A DNA stretch of 64,000 bases, from contig NZ_CP047020.1 in NCBI RefSeq assembly GCF_009796285.1, forward strand, positions 4,774,001 to 4,838,000, given 5' to 3'. The notes under the pieces were generated by a model. That model did no database searches, was not told where the DNA came from, and saw nothing but the letters and a program-made list of their open reading frames with translations. Shown piece after piece: positions 13,831 to 24,182 of this stretch. Positions within the stretch are counted from its first letter, which is position 1. Each line of letters opens with the position of its first letter. The stretch comes from Streptomyces broussonetiae. Lineage in GTDB: Bacteria; Actinomycetota; Actinomycetes; Streptomycetales; Streptomycetaceae. The position numbers were made by a program, and so were the translations under genes.

Positions 13831-14676
13831 GTGTCGGCCAGTACTGCGCCACCCCAGGAGGAGGCGGTCCCCCCTGCCCCCGCCCCCGCTCCTCCCGACA
13901 CCCCGGAGAAGCGGCGCAGCGCCGACACCCGAGCCCTCACCCAGGTCCTCTTCGCCGAACTGAAGCAGCTCGCCCCGGGCACGCCGGAGCACCACCGGGT
14001 GCGCGGGGCGCTGATCGAGGCGAACCTCCCGCTCGTGCGCTACGCGGCCGCCCGCTTCCGCTCCCGCAACGAGCCGATGGAGGACGTCGTCCAGGTCGGC
14101 ACCATCGGCCTGATCAACGCCATCGACCGGTTCGACCCGGACCGGGGCGTGCAGTTCCCGACCTTCGCGATGCCGACCGTGGTCGGCGAGATCAAGCGCT
14201 ACTTCCGGGACAACGTCCGCACGGTCCACGTACCGCGCCGGCTGCACGAGCTGTGGGTGCAGGTCAACAGCGCGACCGAGGACCTCACCACGCTCTACGG
14301 CCGCTCCCCGTCCACCGCCGAGATCGCCGAGCGGCTCCGGATCGGCGAGGACGAGGTACTGAGCTGCATCGAGGCGGGCCGCTCGTACCACGCCACCTCC
14401 CTGGAGGCCGCGCAGGAGGGCGACGGGCTGCCCGGGCTGCTGGACCGGATCGGGTACGAGGACCCGGCCCTCGACGGCGTGGAACACCGCGACCTGGTCC
14501 GGCACCTGCTCGTCCAACTCCCCGAGCGCGAGCAGCGCATCCTCCTCCTGCGTTACTACAGCAATCTCACCCAGTCACAGATCAGCGCGGAACTCGGCGT
14601 CTCCCAGATGCACGTCTCGCGTCTCCTCGCCCGCAGCTTCCAGCGGCTGCGCTCCGCGAATCGCATCGACGCCTGA
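13831..14676 (+). CDS. sigF: SigB/SigF-family RNA polymerase sigma factor (sigF-like)
   Basis: A 281-aa sigma factor of the SigB/F/G family. A short Pro/Ala-rich N-terminus precedes region 2 ([20 protein letters not shown] and [18 protein letters not shown]), then region 3, and region 4 with the [20 protein letters not shown] helix-turn-helix. GTG 13831 follows AGAGGTGG by eight bases; a TTG at 13804 lacks a ribosome site. These factors are usually held by RsbW-type anti-sigma ATPases. The order upp, tadA, tRNA-Ser and two adjacent paralogous sigma genes matches what I recall for sigF (spore maturation) next to sigN, so the symbol rests on order and N-terminal resemblance. Confidence 0.85.
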
Positions 14677-15064
14677 GGACTCCGGGCATAAGCGCTCGAC
14701 ACTTAAAGGCGCGATAAGAACCAGTACGGACCCAAGCGCGGGGGGCGTTCAGCCGATGCATAGCAGGCGCACGGAAGCACGCCTTGAGCGCTTCTGCATC
14801 GCATACCCGAGCGAGCGGTAACCGTCACGGGCGAATCGCTCACCTGGGCCGATGCCGACAGTTGGGGCCGGAAAAAGCGTCAGACCCCTTCCGTCCAGGG
14901 CCGATTCGGATCTGTCATGTCGACATGTCACTACAGCGTGTTGCCGACATGTGACATTCTGCGGGAGACGCGTTTGCCGGGCCTCCGGCTCCGGTATTCA
15001 GGTGAAGGCTGCGTTGCTCGAATGTCGGCGCCGCCGCGACCGTCCGCGACCCAAAGGGGGTGGC
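14677..15064. other. 388-bp leader/promoter region between the two sigma genes
   Basis: No coding frame here has support. The region holds the symmetric CATGTCGACATG element and its partial direct repeat (listed separately), and the AAAGGGGG ribosome site at its end. Its length suggests a separate, regulated promoter for the second sigma gene. Confidence 0.6.
14916..14952. promoter_or_regulatory. Palindrome plus direct repeat upstream of the second sigma gene
   Basis: CATGTCGACATG at 14916-14927 is a perfect 12-bp palindrome. CGACATGT occurs at 14921-14928 and again at 14945-14952, 24 bp apart, both about 110-150 bp ahead of the start. Two similar sites about two helix turns apart are typical of cooperative regulator binding. 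Confidence 0.5.
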
Positions 15065-16003
15065 ATGTCCGCAGACCAGGGCAGCTCGAAGGTGCTGACG
15101 CCCGCGACGAGCGAGGCAGCGCCCAAGGAGCTCGACGCTCTCGACGTCCTCGACGGAATCGAGGCCGTCACGGCCCTCGACGCCGTGCAGGCCCCGACCG
15201 CTCAGGCGGCCGCCCCTGTCCCGGCCCCGCCGGCGTCGGGTGACATCGACACCCGCACGTTGTCCCGCTCACTGTTCCTGCGACTCGCCGCCCTCGGCGA
15301 GGACAGCCCCGAGCGGGCCTACGTCCGGGACACCCTGATCGAGCTGAACCTCCCGCTGGTCCGCTACGCGGCCGCGCGCTTCCGCTCGCGAAACGAGCCG
15401 ATGGAGGACATCGTCCAGGTCGGCACCATCGGCCTGATCAAGGCGATCGACCGCTTCGACTGCGAACGGGGCGTGGAGTTCCCGACGTTCGCGATGCCGA
15501 CCGTGGTCGGCGAGATCAAGCGGTTCTTCCGCGACACCTCCTGGTCGGTCCGTGTCCCGCGCCGACTGCAGGAGCTGCGCCTCGCCCTCACCAAGGCGAG
15601 CGACGAACTCTCGCAGAAGCTGGACCGCTCTCCGACGGTGACCGAACTGGCCGCCGTGCTCGGCGTCTCCGAGGAGGACGTGGTCGACGGCCTGGCGGTC
15701 GGCAACGCCTACACCGCCTCCTCGCTCGACTCCCCCGCTCCCGAGGACGACGGCGGCGAGGGCTCGCTGGCCGACCGCCTCGGCTACGAGGACACCGCCC
15801 TGGAGGGCGTGGAGTACCGCGAGTCCCTCAAGCCCCTGCTGGCCAAACTCCCACCCCGTGAGCGCCGGATCATCATGCTGCGCTTCTTCGCCAACATGAC
15901 CCAGTCCCAGATCGGCGAGGAGGTCGGCATCTCCCAGATGCACGTCTCCCGGCTGCTCACCCGGACGCTGGCCCAGCTGCGGGAGGGGCTGATCTCCGAC
16001 TGA
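15065..16003 (+). CDS. sigN: SigB/SigF-family RNA polymerase sigma factor (sigN-like)
   Basis: A 312-aa paralogue of the preceding factor. A long acidic/Ala-rich N-terminal part (about 1-70) leads into region 2 with the same [10 protein letters not shown] core, [20 protein letters not shown], and region 4 [23 protein letters not shown] 15065 has AAAGGGGG five bases upstream; longer readings have no site. Pairing with the sigF-like gene suggests an old tandem duplication. By order it corresponds to the sigN gene of S. coelicolor, from memory. The long spacer in front suggests independent control. Confidence 0.82.
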
Positions 16004-16866: not shown

Positions 16867-17070
16867 TTACTTGAGCGCCAGCCAGGCCACGCCCGCCACC
16901 ACGGCGATCGCCACGACGATGCCGATGATCAGGCCGATGCGGGGACCGGAGGAGGAAGCGGCGGCTGCCTGTGCCTGGCGCCCCTGGGGGGCCTCGTCGA
17001 CGAACGCGCGGAACATCTGGGTGCTGCCGGCGGGGTCGTAATTGCCCTGGGGGCCCTGGGTGTTAGCCAT
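16867..17070 (-). CDS. Small membrane protein, unknown function
   Basis: A 67-aa protein with a polar start (MANTQGPQGNYDPAGSTQMF) and one C-terminal membrane helix (about 45-66, IGLIIGIVVAIAVVAGVAWL), i.e. tail-anchored. It is convergent with the lipoprotein gene. No family recognised. Confidence 0.6.
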   Translation of the reverse strand: MANTQGPQGNYDPAGSTQMFRAFVDEAPQGRQAQAAAASSSGPRIGLIIGIVVAIAVVAGVAWLALK

Positions 17071-17237: not shown

Positions 17238-17261
17238 GCAACCAATCACCACTATGGTTGC
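17238..17261. promoter_or_regulatory. Inverted repeat, probable MarR operator
   Basis: GCAACCA and TGGTTGC face each other across 10 bases, centred 40 bases ahead of the MarR start in the only AT-rich part of the spacer. The dyad size suits a MarR dimer and suggests autoregulation of the MarR-MFS-YceI unit. Confidence 0.55.
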
Positions 17262-17289
17262 CCCAAGCAACGAATACGGGAGGTGTGTG

Positions 17290-17805
17290 ATGGCCGAGCG
17301 GGCGCAGTTCGAAGAGCTGGCGCGTCAGCTCAGTGCCGTCGGAGCCGTGAAACGGGACCTGGGGCGGATCCTGCCGTCCGACTGTCCGACCGGCTCGGCC
17401 GCCGTGCTGACCCTGCTGGGGCGCCACGGCGACATGCGCATGAGCAAGCTCGCGGAGCTGCTCGCCGTGGACATGTCGGTCACCAGCCGGCATGTCGCGC
17501 ACGTCGCCGCGCGCGGCTGGATCGAACGGCACCCGGACCCCGCGGACAAGCGCTCGCGGATCCTGCGCCTGACGCCCTCGGGGCTGGCGCAGCTCGACGA
17601 GCTGTCCCGGCGGACCACGCATCTGCTCGCGGAGCGGCTCGCCGACTGGACCGACGACGAGGTCGGCCAGCTCATCCGGCTGATGACCCGCCTGCGCGAC
17701 TCGTTCGGGGACTGCCGGGCCGCCTCGGTCCGGTTCCCCTCCGCCGTGGCCGAAGAGACCACACCCGTACTCGCAGAGACCACCCGTACACCCGCAAGCA
17801 CGTAA
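17290..17805 (+). CDS. MarR family transcriptional regulator
   Basis: A 171-aa winged-helix repressor. The recognition part runs MSKLAELLAVDMSVTSRHVA and the wing contains DPADKRSRILRLT. The ribosome site GGGAGGTG lies just before ATG 17290. The C-terminal 25 residues are a Pro/Thr/Ala tail longer than usual. It starts 14 bp before the MFS gene and almost certainly controls it; the ligand is probably an exported compound. Confidence 0.9.
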   Translation: MAERAQFEELARQLSAVGAVKRDLGRILPSDCPTGSAAVLTLLGRHGDMRMSKLAELLAVDMSVTSRHVAHVAARGWIERHPDPADKRSRILRLTPSGLAQLDELSRRTTHLLAERLADWTDDEVGQLIRLMTRLRDSFGDCRAASVRFPSAVAEETTPVLAETTRTPAST

Positions 17806-17818
17806 GAAAAGGAAGCCC

Positions 17819-20383
17819 ATGGCAACGACCACACCAGCCGGTGTGCGGGCTCATGCCAAGCATGGGGGAGGCTCCCCGGCGGAGCACGCCCCCATGACAC
17901 ACCGGCAGATCATGGAGGCGCTGTCCGGCCTGCTCCTGGGCCTGTTCGCCGCCATCCTCTCCTCGACGATCGTCACCAACGCACTGCCGACGATCATCAA
18001 GAGCATCGGCGGCGGCCAGTCCGCCTACACCTGGGTCGTCACGGCGGCACTGCTCGCCATGACCGCCTCCGTGCCGCTGTGGGGCAAGCTCGCCGACCTG
18101 GTCAGCAAGAAGGCGCTCGTCCAGATATCCCTGGTCATCTACGTCATAGGCTCGGTCGTCGCCGGTCTCGCGCAGAACCCGGCGATGCTGATCAGCGCGC
18201 GTGTCATCCAGGGCCTGGGCGCCGGCGGTCTGTCCGCCCTGGTGCAGGTCATCATGGCCGCGATGATCTCCCCCCGGGAGCGCGGCCGGTACTCCGGCTA
18301 CACCGGCGCGACCTTCGCCCTCGCCACCGTCGGCGGCCCGCTGCTCGGCGGTGTCATCACCGACACCTCCTGGCTCGGCTGGCGCTACTGCCTCTTCGTC
18401 GGTATCCCCTTCGCGCTGATCGCGCTGGTCGTGCTGCAGAAGACGCTGCACCTGCCGGTCGTCAAGCGGAAGGTCAAGGTCGACTGGACCGGCGCCTTCT
18501 TCATCACCGCCGCCGCCTCGCTGCTGCTGGTCTGGGTCACCTTCGCCAACGACAAGTACGACTGGCTGTCCTGGCAGACGTACACGATGGTGGGCGGCAC
18601 GATCGTGCTCGCGCTGCTGTTCGTGTTCACCGAGACCAGGGCCGCCGAGCCGATCATCCCGCTGCGGTTCTTCCGCAACCGCACGATCACGCTGGCCTCG
18701 CTGGCCTCGCTGTTCGTCGGTGTCGGCATGTACTCGGGCACCGTGTTCTTCTCGCAGTACTTCCAGCTGGCCCGCGACAAGTCGCCGACGATGTCCGGCG
18801 TCATGACCATCCCGATGATCGGCGGTCTGTTCGTCGCGTCCATGGTCTCCGGCCGCTTCATCACCAGCACCGGCCGCTGGAAGGGCTGGCTGGTCGGCGG
18901 CGGTGTCTCCCTCACGGCGGGCCTCGCCCTGCTCGGCCTGATGCGCTACGACACCCCGTACTGGGAGCTGTCGATCTACATGGCGCTGCTCGGCATCGGC
19001 GTCGGCACGATGATGCAGAACCTGGTGCTGTCCACGCAGAACCAGGTCCAGCCCAAGGACCTGGGCGCCGCCTCCTCCGTGGTGAGCTTCTTCCGCTCCC
19101 TCGGCGGTGCGGTCGGCGTCGGCGTGCTCGGCTCGGTCATGTCGGAGCGGATCACCCACCACGCCAAGGACACCATCACCGAGCTGAGTCCCAGGGCGCG
19201 GGAGGCCGCGGCCCAGGCCGTCGGCAGCAGCAACCTGCCCGACATGAACGCGCTGCCGACCCCGGTGCGCAGCTGGCTGGAGGGCGCCTACGGCCACGGC
19301 ATCGCGGACGTCTTCCTGTACGCGGCCCCGTGCGCGCTGATCGCGTTCATCACGGTGCTGTTCATCAAGGAGGTCCCGCTCAGGACGTCCGGCGCGCTGG
19401 CCCAGGCCGCGCAGGAGAAGGCCGGGGCGGTCGCGGAAGCCGCCGCTCCCGTGGACATGACCGTGGAGAACATCGTGCAGGAACCCGCACAGCAGAAGGT
19501 CCCCAGCTGGGCCACGCCCGTGGTGTCGGACGCCTCCGCCGAGGCGCCGGCCGCGGCGACCGCCGCGGCGCCGGTGGCGACCGCCGTCGCGACGCTCGCC
19601 GGGCCCGGCTCGGGCGGCCCGGGCGGCACCCCGGTGCACGGCTTCGTCCGCGGCGCCGAGAGCGCCCCGGTCCCGCAGGCCGCGGTCACCCTGATCTCGC
19701 TGTCCGGCCGCCAGCTGGGCCGCGCGGTCGCCCAGGGCGACGGCTCCTACTCCGTCGACGCCCCGGGCACGGGTTCGTACGTCCTGATCGCCTCCGCCGA
19801 CGGCTACCAGCCGCAGGCCTCCACCGTCGTGGTGGGCGAGGAGCCGCTGCCGTACGACATCCTGCTCAGCGGCACCAGTGGGCTGACCGGTGTCGTCCGG
19901 GCCGCCGGGAGCGCGCTGCCGGTCAAGGACGCCATGGTGATCGTCACCGATGTACGCGGTGACCTGCTGGCCACCGCCGCCACCGGTGAGCAGGGCGAGT
20001 TCGCCTTCACCGATCTGGTGCCCGGTACCGTGACGATGGCCGTCAACGCGAGCGGCTTCCGGCCGCGCGCGCTGCCGGTCGAGGTCGGCACCACCGGGAT
20101 CACCCGGATCGAGATCGACCTGGACGCCGGCGCCCGCCTCCAGGGTGTCATCAGGGCCCCGCACGGTCCGCTGGCCGACGCCCGTGTGACCCTGGTCGAC
20201 CAGGCCGGCAACGTGGTCGGCACCGCCACCACCGGAACGGACGGCGCGTACGCCTTCACCGACCTGGACAGCGGCGAGTACACCGTCATCGCGACGGGCT
20301 ACCCGCCGGTGGCCACCGCGCTGACCGTCGCCGGCACCGGAGTCGACGGCCACGAGATCCAGCTCGCCCACCCCGGCGAGTAG
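17819..20383 (+). CDS. MFS (DHA2-type) exporter fused to three prealbumin-like (carboxypeptidase regulatory-like) repeats
   Basis: An 854-aa protein. Residues about 30-530 form a 14-helix drug/H+ antiporter of the EmrB/QacA type: LWGKLADLVSKKAL (motif A) and GPLLGGVI (motif C). After an Ala/Pro linker (about 540-600) come three beta-sandwich repeats starting near residues 602 (VHGFVRGAESAPVPQAAVTL), 687 (LTGVVRAAGSALPVKDAMVI) and 772 (LQGVIRAPHGPLADARVTLV). With 14 helices the C-terminus should lie in the cytoplasm, an unusual place for this domain. The next gene carries the same domain on a YceI protein. Ordinary DHA2 exporters end near residue 530, so the tail is a true addition. Confidence 0.9.
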   Translation: MATTTPAGVRAHAKHGGGSPAEHAPMTHRQIMEALSGLLLGLFAAILSSTIVTNALPTIIKSIGGGQSAYTWVVTAALLAMTASVPLWGKLADLVSKKALVQISLVIYVIGSVVAGLAQNPAMLISARVIQGLGAGGLSALVQVIMAAMISPRERGRYSGYTGATFALATVGGPLLGGVITDTSWLGWRYCLFVGIPFALIALVVLQKTLHLPVVKRKVKVDWTGAFFITAAASLLLVWVTFANDKYDWLSWQTYTMVGGTIVLALLFVFTETRAAEPIIPLRFFRNRTITLASLASLFVGVGMYSGTVFFSQYFQLARDKSPTMSGVMTIPMIGGLFVASMVSGRFITSTGRWKGWLVGGGVSLTAGLALLGLMRYDTPYWELSIYMALLGIGVGTMMQNLVLSTQNQVQPKDLGAASSVVSFFRSLGGAVGVGVLGSVMSERITHHAKDTITELSPRAREAAAQAVGSSNLPDMNALPTPVRSWLEGAYGHGIADVFLYAAPCALIAFITVLFIKEVPLRTSGALAQAAQEKAGAVAEAAAPVDMTVENIVQEPAQQKVPSWATPVVSDASAEAPAAATAAAPVATAVATLAGPGSGGPGGTPVHGFVRGAESAPVPQAAVTLISLSGRQLGRAVAQGDGSYSVDAPGTGSYVLIASADGYQPQASTVVVGEEPLPYDILLSGTSGLTGVVRAAGSALPVKDAMVIVTDVRGDLLATAATGEQGEFAFTDLVPGTVTMAVNASGFRPRALPVEVGTTGITRIEIDLDAGARLQGVIRAPHGPLADARVTLVDQAGNVVGTATTGTDGAYAFTDLDSGEYTVIATGYPPVATALTVAGTGVDGHEIQLAHPGE

Positions 20384-20473
20384 TGCACCCCCGGCCCGTG
20401 GCACACGTACCGTCGTGTGCCACGGGCCGATGCCATAAGACCAATTTGTAAGGCTTTTCAGGGAGAAAACGGG

Positions 20474-21295
20474 ATGGGACTGACCGCGAAGATCCGCACG
20501 CGTGACGGGTGGGCCGTGTCGCACGCGGTCGTCACGGTGACCGACATGACCGGTACGCAGGTGCTGCGCGCCGAGGCGGATACCGAGGGGACGGTACGGG
20601 ACACCACCGAGCTGGTGCCGGGGGCGTACACGGTGATCGTGACGGCGGTCGGGTACGCGCCCGCCGCCTCCAGCGCGATCGTCACCGCGAGCGGCCGGGC
20701 CGAGGTCGGCACGGTCACACTGGCCCGGCAGGGCGGCACCGAGCTGCCGCCGCCCGGGCCCTGGACGATCGACCCGGTGCACTCCTCCGTGGCCGCGGTC
20801 GCCCAGCACCTGGGCATCTCCAGCGTGCACGGCCGGTTCACGGAGTTCGGCGGCACGATCGAGATCGCACCTGACGACGTCACCAAGTCCCGGGTGGAGG
20901 CGGTGATCAAGGCCGCGTCCATCGACACGGGCAACGCGATGCGCGACACGCATCTGAAGTCCGGGGACTTCCTCGACGTCGAGCAGCACCCGGAGATCAC
21001 GTACCGCTCCACCGGTGTGACGGTGGCCGGCTCGGACCGCTGGACGGTCCACGGCGAGCTGTCGATGCACGGTGTCGTACGGCCGGTCGACCTGGACCTG
21101 GCGTACCTCGGCACCGGCGCGGACCCCTGGGGCGGCACGCGCGCCGCGTTCCGCGCGACCGCGGAACTGCGCCGCGAGGACTTCGCGATGAACTACAACC
21201 AGGTTCTGCAGGCCGGTATCGCGGCGATCGGTACGACGCTGAAGGTGGATCTGGACATCCAGGCGGTACAGGGCGACTCGCTGCCCCAGGCGTAG
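20474..21295 (+). CDS. YceI-family protein with N-terminal prealbumin-like domain
   Basis: A 273-aa protein. Residues 3-85 repeat the domain seen at the MFS C-terminus (LTAKIRTRDGWAVSHAVVTV and PGAYTVIVTAVGYAPAA). Residues 95-270 are a YceI lipocalin-like barrel (WTIDPVHSSVAAVAQHLGIS, RDTHLKSGDFLDVEQHPEIT, VHGELSMHGVVRPVDLDL). YceI proteins bind long isoprenoid-type lipids and are usually exported, but no signal peptide is visible here. ATG 20474 has GGGAG upstream. It lies 90 bp after the MFS gene and is probably a functional partner. Confidence 0.9.
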   Translation: MGLTAKIRTRDGWAVSHAVVTVTDMTGTQVLRAEADTEGTVRDTTELVPGAYTVIVTAVGYAPAASSAIVTASGRAEVGTVTLARQGGTELPPPGPWTIDPVHSSVAAVAQHLGISSVHGRFTEFGGTIEIAPDDVTKSRVEAVIKAASIDTGNAMRDTHLKSGDFLDVEQHPEITYRSTGVTVAGSDRWTVHGELSMHGVVRPVDLDLAYLGTGADPWGGTRAAFRATAELRREDFAMNYNQVLQAGIAAIGTTLKVDLDIQAVQGDSLPQA

Positions 21296-21344: not shown

Positions 21345-21815
21345 ATGGCACCGAACATCGCTACCAACACCCGTGTATCGCTGGACGAGCTGCTGGACTT
21401 CGTACGGCCCCGGCACCGGGCCCTGCTGCTGACCCGCCGCTCCGACGGCGGGCCGCAGGCCTCTCCGCTGACCTGTGGAGTCGACGACGCGGGCCGGATC
21501 GTCGTCTCCACCTACCCCGAGCGCGCCAAGACCCGCAACGCCAAGCGCGACCCGCGGGTCGCCCTGGTCGTCCTGAGCGACGAGTGGAACGGCCCCTGGG
21601 TCCAGATCGACGGCACGGCCGAGGTCATCGACACCCCGGACTCCGTGGAACCGCTCGTCGAGTACTACCGCAACATCGCCGGCGAACACCCCGACTGGGA
21701 CGAGTACCGCGCGGCGATGGTCAAGCAGGGCAAATCGATCATCCGGGTGACCCCGCAGCGCTGGGGACCCATCGCCACCGGGGGCTTCCCGGCCCGGCTG
21801 GTGTCCGAGGAGTGA
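21345..21815 (+). CDS. PPOX-class (split-barrel) F420-dependent oxidoreductase
   Basis: A 156-aa flavin/F420-binding split barrel. The signature parts are RALLLTRRSDGGPQASPLTC, VSTYPERAKTRNAKRDPRVA and GTAEVIDTPDS. These proteins use F420 or FMN to reduce varied substrates. It starts 49 bp after the YceI gene, so it may share that transcript, and converges on the TetR gene. Confidence 0.88.
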   Translation: MAPNIATNTRVSLDELLDFVRPRHRALLLTRRSDGGPQASPLTCGVDDAGRIVVSTYPERAKTRNAKRDPRVALVVLSDEWNGPWVQIDGTAEVIDTPDSVEPLVEYYRNIAGEHPDWDEYRAAMVKQGKSIIRVTPQRWGPIATGGFPARLVSEE

Positions 21816-21840: not shown

Positions 21841-22629
21841 TCAGCCGCGTTCCACCATCGCCTCGATGCCCGCCACCAGCAGGTCCAGGGCGTAGGTGAA
21901 GTCGCGGTCCAGCATTTCGGCGACCGTGTCCCCGCCGCGGGCCGCCACGATGTCCCTGGACTCCTCCACGGCCTCGGCGGTCTGCGGGGCCTCGGCCACC
22001 ATGGCCAGGGCCCGCTGGTGATACTCGTCGGCGCTCAGCCCGGTGTCCGCGATCCGGGCGGAGAAGTGCGCCTCGTACGTGCCGTAGCCGTAGACGAACT
22101 GGAAGACCGCCGAGATCGCCCCCATGACCCCGTGCGCGGGCAGCCCCGCCCGGCGGACCACCCGCTGGACCACGCGGGAGAACGCCAGCGCGTTCGGGCC
22201 GATGTTGAGATAGCGCCCGGCGAGCGGCGACAGCCAGGTGTGGCGCACCAGCAGCGCCCGGTACTCGGTGGCCAGCCCCCGCAACTGCCCGCGCCAGTCC
22301 TCGCCCTCGGCGTCCGGGTCGGGCAGCCGCAACTCGCCGAAGACGGCGTCCAGGGCGAGTTCGAGCAGGTCGTCCTTGGTGTCGACGTACCAGTACAGGG
22401 ACATCGCGGTGACGTTCAGCTCCGCGGCCAGCCGCCGCATGGACAACTTCGCCAGCCCCTCGGCGTCGAGCAGCCGCACGGACACCGAGGTGATCCGCTC
22501 CCGGTCGAGCCCTGAGGGCTGGGCGGCACTGCGTCCGCCACGGGGGGCCTTCGCCTCCAGCCACACGCTGCCCCTCGCCGACCGCCCTGCTTCCTTCACC
22601 ACCGGTGCACCTTCCTCGAATCCGGCCAT
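21841..22629 (-). CDS. TetR family regulator (TetR_C_1 type)
   Basis: A 262-aa repressor. A 40-residue basic leader comes before the helix-turn-helix (LSMRRLAAELNVTAMSLYWY), then a C-terminal ligand domain of the tetracycline-repressor class C1 (RHTWLSPLAGRYLNIGPNAL). This class usually controls a neighbouring MFS pump. The pump gene is just upstream on the same strand, with a 128-bp gap and a strong palindrome at the pump's own start. Confidence 0.88.
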   Translation of the reverse strand: MAGFEEGAPVVKEAGRSARGSVWLEAKAPRGGRSAAQPSGLDRERITSVSVRLLDAEGLAKLSMRRLAAELNVTAMSLYWYVDTKDDLLELALDAVFGELRLPDPDAEGEDWRGQLRGLATEYRALLVRHTWLSPLAGRYLNIGPNALAFSRVVQRVVRRAGLPAHGVMGAISAVFQFVYGYGTYEAHFSARIADTGLSADEYHQRALAMVAEAPQTAEAVEESRDIVAARGGDTVAEMLDRDFTYALDLLVAGIEAMVERG

Positions 22630-22757
22630 TGGTCCAACCTAAGGGGCACACGGCTGTGTCCGATATGCGGCTGCGCCGCGCGGGCGCGAGCGACCCCGAT
22701 GCATCCGCACCCGCACCCCCACCCGCCCGTACACCGATACCCCCGAGCCGACAGGGC

Positions 22758-24143
22758 CTAGGCGCCCACCCGCTCCGCCCGTCGCAACAGCGCCGCCGTG
22801 AGGAACCCCCCGGCCAGCACGGCAACGGCTCCCACCAACTGACCGGCGCCCAGAGCGGTGGACAGCGTCTTTCCCGACGCCACGGAAGAGCTGAGCACAG
22901 CACCCAGGACGGCAACACCAAGACCGTTGCCGAACTCTGCCAACGTTCCGTTGATCCCGGCCCCCACCCCGGCCTTCTCCGCAGGGATCGCGCTCATGAC
23001 GGCGTGCGCCATCGCCGGGTTGGCGACCGCGGCCCCCATGCCGATCAGCACCAGCCCCAGCAGGGTCCCGGCATACCCGCCGGAGTCCACCTCCGCGATC
23101 GCCACGAGCCCGGCCGCCATCAGCGCCATCCCGAGCGCGACGGACACGGGCGTGCCCAGCCGGGCGGACAACTTCGCCGACAACCCGGTGAAGTTGAGCA
23201 GCACCACCGTCACCGCCAGCGGAGCGGTCCGCAGCCCCGCCTCCAACGGCCCGTACCCGAGCACGAACTGCAGATGCTGCGTCAGCAGGAACATCGCCCC
23301 GCCCATGCCGAACATGAGCAGCAGGGCCCCGGCGACCGCGCCCGTGAACTGCCGGTTCCTGAAGAAGTGCAGGTCGAGCATCGGCTCGGCGACCCTGCCC
23401 TCCCACCGGGCGAAGGCCCCGAGCACGAGCACCGCCGCGCCGGCCGTACCGAGCACGCGGGGAGAGGTCCAGCCGTGCTCCGGGCCGGAGATGATCGCGA
23501 AGACCAACGCGGCCATACCGATGGTCGACAGCACCGCGCCGAGCAGGTCGGGGCGGTCGCCGCCAGGGCTCTTCGACTCCGGTACGAGCACCACCACCGC
23601 GACCAGGGCCAGCACCGCGACCGGGATGTTGATCAGGAAGATCGCGCCCCACCGGAAGTGGTTCAGTACGAAGCCGCCGACGAGCGGACCGCCGCCGAAG
23701 CCGAGCGCGTTGACCGCGCTCCAGATGCCGATCGCCTTCGGCTGCTCCTCGGGCGTGAAGATCTGCATGGCCACGGCCAGCGTGGTGGTCAGCAGCAGCG
23801 CACCGCCTATGCCCATGCCGGCCCGGGCAGCGATCAACTGGCCGGTGGTTCCTGAGAGTCCGGCCGCCAGCGAGCCGATGCCGAACAGGGCGAGCCCGGC
23901 CATCAGCATCTTCTTACGGCCGTAGCGGTCGGCGGCGCTGCCCGCGGTGAGCAGCAGCCCGGACTGCACCAGGGAGTACGCGTTGATCATCCATTGGATG
24001 TCCGAGGTGGCGGCGTGCAGTTCGCGGGTGAGCGAGGGGATGGCCACGTTCAGGACGGTGTTGTCGAGCAGCACGGTGAGCTGGGCCAGGCAGATGACGC
24101 CGAGGATCAGCCAGCGCTGGGGGTGTCCCTGGGATACAGACAT
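22758..24143 (-). CDS. MFS transporter, DHA2 family (14 helices)
   Basis: A 461-aa exporter. The start MSVSQGHPQRWLILGVICLA, DRYGRKKMLMAGLALFGIGS (motif A) and VLLDNTVLNVAIPSL fit multidrug exporters. ATG 24143 coincides with the edge of the 40-bp palindrome; a GTG at 24152 lies inside it, so the ATG is preferred. If transcription starts within the palindrome the message is nearly leaderless. It is probably regulated by the TetR protein encoded downstream. Confidence 0.88.
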   Translation of the reverse strand: MSVSQGHPQRWLILGVICLAQLTVLLDNTVLNVAIPSLTRELHAATSDIQWMINAYSLVQSGLLLTAGSAADRYGRKKMLMAGLALFGIGSLAAGLSGTTGQLIAARAGMGIGGALLLTTTLAVAMQIFTPEEQPKAIGIWSAVNALGFGGGPLVGGFVLNHFRWGAIFLINIPVAVLALVAVVVLVPESKSPGGDRPDLLGAVLSTIGMAALVFAIISGPEHGWTSPRVLGTAGAAVLVLGAFARWEGRVAEPMLDLHFFRNRQFTGAVAGALLLMFGMGGAMFLLTQHLQFVLGYGPLEAGLRTAPLAVTVVLLNFTGLSAKLSARLGTPVSVALGMALMAAGLVAIAEVDSGGYAGTLLGLVLIGMGAAVANPAMAHAVMSAIPAEKAGVGAGINGTLAEFGNGLGVAVLGAVLSSSVASGKTLSTALGAGQLVGAVAVLAGGFLTAALLRRAERVGA

Positions 24144-24182
24144 GTCGTACACCGTATAGCAGCTGCTATACGGTGTACGACA
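24143..24182. promoter_or_regulatory. Perfect 40-bp palindrome, probable TetR operator
   Basis: The left half TGTCGTACACCGTATAGCAG is followed by its exact reverse complement, with no mismatch and no spacer; the centre is at 24162/24163. Each half holds GTACACCGTATAG, itself a rough dyad, so two dimers could bind side by side. It sits between the glycosyltransferase stop (24199) and the MFS start. Confidence 0.85.

Follow-up and report, generated by a model that had tools for sequence, protein, structure and literature searches.

The usual view of MFS drug pumps is that they pick up their substrates straight from the membrane or the cytoplasm, without any protein that delivers them. The locus described here, from Streptomyces broussonetiae, raises the question of whether such a pump could have an intracellular partner that brings the cargo to it. 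Its three genes, all on the (+) strand, encode a MarR-family repressor, a DHA2-type exporter and a YceI-family lipocalin (Table 1), and they lie in the window, which is the whole stretch of 64,000 nucleotides of the 9.74-Mb chromosome that was analysed. An initial annotation had proposed that repeats shared by the last two proteins bring a cytoplasmic lipid or quinone carrier to the pump, under the control of MarR.

Table 1. Features of the locus, with positions in the window, and the tailed paralogous exporters of the same genome (last row, positions in their own loci).
Feature	Position	Strand	Evidence or remark
67-aa protein with C-terminal membrane anchor, SCO4033 orthologue	16867-17070	-	divergent from MarR, upstream of the trio
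MarR operator a, TTGCCTTTGCCAA	17187..17199	+	exact match to the SAV4189 consensus (PMC6036246)
MarR operator b1, TTGCCTGCAGCAA	17229..17241	+	exact consensus match
Dyad GCAACCA-N10-TGGTTGC of the initial annotation	17238..17261		facing arms of operators b1 and b2, no separate site
MarR operator b2, TTGCCCCAAGCAA	17258..17270	+	one mismatch to the consensus; position conserved
MarR-family repressor, 171 aa	17290..17805	+	Pfam MarR 7.5e-12; orthologue of SAV4189 / SCO4032
DHA2-type MFS exporter, 854 aa	17819..20383	+	MFS_1 8.5e-42; orthologue of SAV4190 / SCO4031
Membrane part, 14 transmembrane helices, residues 34-516	17918..19366	+	hydropathy and positive-inside charges
Flexible Ala/Pro/Glu-rich linker, residues 517-603	19367..19627	+	not a 15th helix
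Tail repeat 1, residues 604-686	19628..19876	+	carries the GxQxxR signature
Tail repeat 2, residues 687-771	19877..20131	+	
Tail repeat 3, residues 772-854	20132..20380	+	
16-bp perfect hairpin between exporter and yceI	20392..20429	+	no U-tract
YceI-family lipocalin with N-terminal repeat, 273 aa	20474..21295	+	YceI 6.5e-46; no signal peptide
N-terminal CarboxypepD_reg-like domain of YceI, residues 1-88	20474..20737	+	nearest to tail repeat 1
YceI barrel, residues 97-264	20762..21265	+	Pfam PF04264; model matches 7bwl and 1y0g
F420-dependent PPOX-class oxidoreductase	21345..21815	+	Rv1155_F420 1.9e-40; common downstream neighbour, outside the core
Tailed paralogous exporters, G000	L026 4762-7329; L027 5092-7413; L028 4974-7310; L033 5258-7012		

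The order of the genes leads to a region that is already known in other species. The C-terminus of the small divergent protein, AASSSGPRIGLIIGIVVAIAVVAGVAWLALK, is a near match to the tail of SCO4033 from S. coelicolor, AASSGPRVGLIVGIVAAVIVVAAVAWLALG, and SCO4033 is a candidate for a tail-anchored protein (PMC3087755). On account of this tail, together with the MarR protein and the exporter, the locus is considered the counterpart of SCO4033-SCO4032-SCO4031 and of sav_4188-sav_4189-sav_4190 (PMC6036246). The MarR protein agrees with SAV4189 both in its length (171 aa) and in its operators, and the SAV4189-SAV4190 system also has three operators, an MFS exporter a few bases downstream and a divergent small membrane gene (PMC6036246), so that the two loci are regarded as orthologous. 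On the other hand, the yceI gene, the repeats of the exporter and their sharing are unmentioned in the literature found on that system. Regarding the surroundings of the locus, inspection of the window revealed two adjoining genes resembling stress-type sigma factors upstream of it (13999-16003) and, on the (-) strand (21841-24152), a TetR-like regulator with another DHA2-like exporter that lacks the repeats, an ordinary-looking drug-export pair.

The regulation of the first two genes can be described by reference to S. avermitilis. SAV4189 protects three 13-bp palindromes, with the footprinted consensus TTGCCYKHRSCAA, and represses both its own gene and the exporter; hygromycin B and thiostrepton release it, and the exporter then rises about 70-fold (PMC6036246). 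Deletion of the exporter in S. avermitilis raises the yield of avermectin. The window contains three 13-bp operators of this type, and two or three of them are present in 75 of 76 loci. The dyad that had been proposed as the MarR operator is a perfect 7-bp inverted repeat, as stated at the time, but its role as an operator is ruled out by these three sites, which match the footprinted SAV4189 consensus. The wider proposal that MarR controls the exporter has been demonstrated experimentally for the orthologue (PMC6036246) and by analogy would apply here. The MarR-exporter half of the locus, an antibiotic-released repressor with its target exporter, is therefore already published through SAV4189/SAV4190.

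The exporter itself is a 14-helix DHA2 protein with a C-terminal tail, as it had been annotated, according to both the MFS_1 match and hydropathy. EmrB-type DHA2 transporters (TIGR00711) resemble it in the 14 helices and the drug-exporter sequence; nevertheless it scores 218.6 bits against that model, just below the cut-off of 230.2, and is thus a relative of this type rather than a strict member, and it differs from it in the long cytoplasmic tail made up of three beta-sandwich repeats. Lysine and arginine are enriched in the loops predicted to be inside, which, following the positive-inside rule, would place both termini in the cytoplasm. Across orthologues the linker measures 29-117 aa in the aligned window and its hydropathy reaches a maximum of 1.5. 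A 15th helix formed by the mildly hydrophobic residues 576-594, which would put the tail outside, was considered and rejected, because no orthologue has a linker above 1.6 in hydropathy and because of the variation in linker length.

The third protein covers the whole YceI profile (PF04264, positions 1-150 of 150) with 156.8 bits, the cut-off being 23.7. Its gene likely starts at the ATG at 20474, preceded by the ribosome site AGGGAG, and not at an upstream GTG. The model of the barrel gave TM values in Foldseek of 0.86 to 7bwl and 1y0g and of 0.81 to 1wub. The absence of a signal peptide, already noted for the single protein, extends to 79 YceI orthologues, among which no signal-peptide-like hydrophobic N-terminal stretch was found by hydropathy alone. 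Taken together, the positive-inside charges, the non-hydrophobic linker and the lack of a signal peptide uphold the earlier view that the tail and YceI share one compartment, and both are very probably cytoplasmic as far as can be predicted from sequence.

The feature that joins the two proteins is the repeat. The exporter tail matches CarboxypepD_reg (PF13620, prealbumin-like) with 115.3 bits, in three stretches of 83-85 residues each, and the three homologous repeats of about 84 residues that had been described are confirmed with the borders given in Table 1. Each of the 152 exporter sequences whose tail could be parsed has exactly three of them. The fusion of one more such repeat to the YceI domain also stands, although with a weaker match: residues 4-83 of the lipocalin reach 30.9 bits against PF13620, just below the cut-off of 32.3, and the corresponding value in the distant orthologue L180 is 48 bits. 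Pairwise identities among the three tail repeats and the N-terminal domain of YceI (YceI-N) are 28-42%, which is 6.8-11.5 standard deviations above shuffled sequences, so the likeness is not due to chance.

With respect to the history of these domains, repeats 1, 2 and 3 mostly cluster by their own kind in the tree, across paralogues and families, and the triplication is therefore old. YceI-N clusters with repeat 1 (99/96; 99/90 without the long rows; short alignment), whereas the AU test keeps kinship with repeat 3 (p 0.18) or with repeat 2 (p 0.13), and in the window alone the highest single-pair identity of YceI-N is with repeat 3 (36%). The origin of YceI-N from repeat 1 was consequently dropped as a settled point: it gives the best tree, yet the alternatives with repeats 2 and 3 are not rejected. 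A sign that does not depend on the tree is the motif GxQxxR, as Q29 and R32 are present in 153/153 YceI-N sequences and, at the same places of repeat 1, Q is found in 152/152 and R in 98%, both residues being absent from repeats 2 and 3. This motif is the best candidate for a binding surface common to YceI-N and repeat 1, judging from residue conservation. It also appears in repeat 1 of paralogous exporters without a YceI neighbour, and may therefore have a partner that all tails of this kind share. Among the Streptomyces sequences, the rate at which repeats 1 and 3 diverge does not exceed that of the membrane part of the exporter. The distances of tail and YceI-N correlate strongly, but not more strongly than those of other parts.

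How constant the association is was surveyed in 121 Streptomyces genomes, in which YceI orthologues were defined by at least 70% identity and the exporter was located by a tail search. The YceI orthologue was detected in 88 of the 121 genomes; in 87 of these 88 it is immediately preceded, in the same orientation, by an exporter tail, and this is also true of the remaining one (L109) when its locus is read directly. None of the 121 genomes has one orthologue without the other, and the other exporter-tail matches of at least 59% all belong to genomes that possess the pair. Among the fetched Streptomyces loci the MarR gene is present in 75 of 79, and the downstream PPOX gene in 50 of 79.

The pair is also found outside Streptomyces, in named genomes of Nocardia, Amycolatopsis, Actinomadura, Nocardioides, Streptacidiphilus and Actinoallomurus, and under three further family codes (f17, f4 and f42) of the genome set. 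In the scan of named genomes a single distant YceI query found nothing, while an alignment query found the loci; the exporter tail is located just upstream of YceI in 76 of 80 of them. Many of the non-Streptomyces pairs have genes overlapping by 4 bp, and their regulator is different: a distant MarR up- or downstream, or a TetR-like gene (the latter by inspection only). As the pair recurs with differing regulators, exporter and YceI, rather than all three genes, constitute the core and MarR the variable part. Exporter and YceI very likely form a conserved functional pair.

The exceptions are few. Three related Nocardia carry YceI behind an AraC-like gene (by inspection) and have two three-repeat exporters elsewhere in their genomes. 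In Streptomyces justiciae (L214, 4480-7741) the neighbour of YceI, in tail-to-tail orientation, is a different DHA2 exporter, which has the same three repeats, and an exporter tail of the window type (83%) is also present elsewhere in that genome. An apparent natural fusion of tail and YceI in Streptomyces macrolidinus (L217, 3300-5330), where the stop codon of the exporter is absent, was discarded, since a stop and a frameshift, both in the linker, make a sequence error or decay likelier. The genome of the window encodes four more tailed exporters, of which three have three repeats and one has a single repeat; none of them lies beside a YceI gene (Table 1). Another YceI that bears a repeat at its N-terminus (44% identity) occurs at L029 (6749-7639, (-) strand) beside lepA and rpsT, with no exporter neighbour, and such lepA-linked repeat-bearing YceI proteins are widespread in Streptomyces. 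From the three tailed paralogues without YceI and the exporter-less YceI near lepA it follows that each half can serve without the other adjoining.

Whether the repressor also governs yceI in Streptomyces is uncertain, because a strong hairpin separates this gene from the exporter. The outer stem, GGCCCGTGG...CCACGGGCC, is kept in most close relatives and the middle varies; the terminator scan did not call the hairpin, which may end, slow or separate transcription. In the partial tables of two transcriptome papers SCO4031 and SCO4032 appear together, without SCO4030 (presumably yceI, by gene order), which is a weak indication. A hairpin with a conserved loop (GGCAGGC AGGGGACG GCCTGCC) was observed between exporter and yceI in a subset of Streptomyces (L121, L133, L135, L138, L140, L144 and others), and none of the three loci scanned gave an Rfam match to it.

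The near-constant adjacency and the common repeat suggest that YceI may attach to the pump and supply it. The reading that we prefer, tentatively, is an efflux module inducible by antibiotics or xenobiotics, in which YceI docks on the tail of the pump and supplies its cargo. The MarR repressor would occupy its three operators until certain drugs release it, as has been shown for the orthologue, and the 14-helix pump would then be made, with the three beta-sandwich repeats held in the cytoplasm on a flexible linker, as topology and sequence would predict. YceI, also in the cytoplasm, would take up amphiphilic drugs, or metabolites resembling drugs, in its barrel, dock on the tail by means of its own repeat and raise the local concentration of cargo at the inner gate. 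A protein that binds a broad range of amphiphiles would be a plausible neighbour for a multidrug exporter, because YceI lipocalins bind antibiotics (PMC5350466) as well as isoprenoids and ubiquinone (PMC9113575).

The separate steps of this module are not equally probable. Physical docking of YceI on the exporter tail has somewhat less than an even chance, and it is doubted because no confident contact appeared in the fused chain and because each half also occurs alone in the same genome. For that model, exporter and yceI being in the same frame, the TAG stop of the exporter was read as Gln and a shallow alignment of 18 rows was used; tail and YceI as a single chain gave a pTM of 0.48, with no confident arrangement predicted. 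A deeper mixed alignment was abandoned, as tails were aligned to the wrong repeats. The tail alone is predicted by AlphaFold2 as well-folded repeats (pLDDT 86.9) of uncertain mutual orientation (pTM 0.57), and the folds nearest to this model are beta-sandwich domains of surface proteins and pilins, at low overall TM. The hand-over of cargo from YceI to the pump would be a further step and is doubtful. It is similarly unlikely, though worth stating, that the cytoplasmic lipocalin is a dedicated delivery subunit, that is, a soluble intracellular adaptor which docks via the common domain on a single-component MFS pump.

The same data leave some room for a joint stress response without contact, a possible if slightly less favoured explanation, in which cytoplasmic YceI would sequester drugs, oxidised lipids or quinones while the exporter works separately, and the repeats would be stabilising or self-association modules derived from one ancestral gene pair. 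The retention of the three-repeat tail by paralogous exporters lacking YceI, the repeat-bearing YceI that has no exporter neighbour, the predicted structures, which fix no arrangement of tail and YceI, and the free scavenging carried out by secreted YceI proteins (PMC5350466) are all in agreement with it. Nevertheless, a loose regulon would need neither the near-strict adjacency over several families nor the 4-bp overlaps, nor the re-pairing in S. justiciae, and GxQxxR is common only to YceI-N and repeat 1. An improbable third reading makes YceI a regulatory or assembly subunit: its repeat would attach to the tail, thereby gating or clustering the pump, while the barrel senses a ligand; the common repeat, the flexible linker and the translational coupling in several lineages fit it, but nothing direct separates gating from delivery. 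The original version, a lipid or quinone carrier passing an isoprenoid or a quinone to the pump, is very improbable, since despite the isoprenoid or ubiquinone in most YceI crystal structures (PMC9113575) and the match of the barrel to the polyisoprenoid-binding protein 1wub, the orthologous regulator responds to antibiotics (PMC6036246), the exporter is of the drug-export type and, in an unsystematic look, no isoprenoid or quinone gene was noticed as a conserved neighbour.

Returning to the preferred module, a drug or xenobiotic ligand would fit the regulator better than a lipid or a quinone, by analogy with the orthologue. YceI lipocalins from other organisms bind rifampin, polymyxin B, norfloxacin and ceftazidime (PMC5350466). 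Against the drug reading, those YceI proteins that are known to bind antibiotics are secreted, and their binding of the aminoglycoside gentamicin is poor, and one of the inducers is the aminocyclitol hygromycin B. BcnA and BcnB of Burkholderia and PA0423 of Pseudomonas (PMC5350466) have in common with the lipocalin of the window the YceI barrel (model TM 0.78-0.86 to 5ixg, 5ixh and 7bwl) and an expression context linked to antibiotics; however, they are single-domain proteins and BcnA is secreted, whereas the protein of the window lacks a signal peptide and has a repeat domain in addition to the barrel. In the BcnA-LcoA pair, which detoxifies lipid peroxides (PMC9113575), a YceI lipocalin is also genetically tied to an upstream membrane protein, but that system pairs a periplasmic lipocalin with a cytochrome b561, instead of a cytoplasmic lipocalin with an upstream MFS exporter.

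SCO4121/SCO4122 is a similar pair, on which nothing useful was found in the literature. Searches for papers on this YceI, or on exporters with such repeats in their tails, gave no result either. The YceI partner, the common repeat and the wide pairing are new, no description of them having been found, and the nearest concept is BcnA with LcoA (PMC9113575).

Tailed MFS exporters are a broader class, on which no literature was found, and the pairing suggests that the same pair be sought in Nocardia and Amycolatopsis. If the pump does have a lipocalin partner with a common domain, this would account for a so far unmentioned gene next to a studied operon that responds to antibiotics and affects the yield of avermectin, and the delivery of the drug to the pump would become a question that can be tested in a laboratory Streptomyces.
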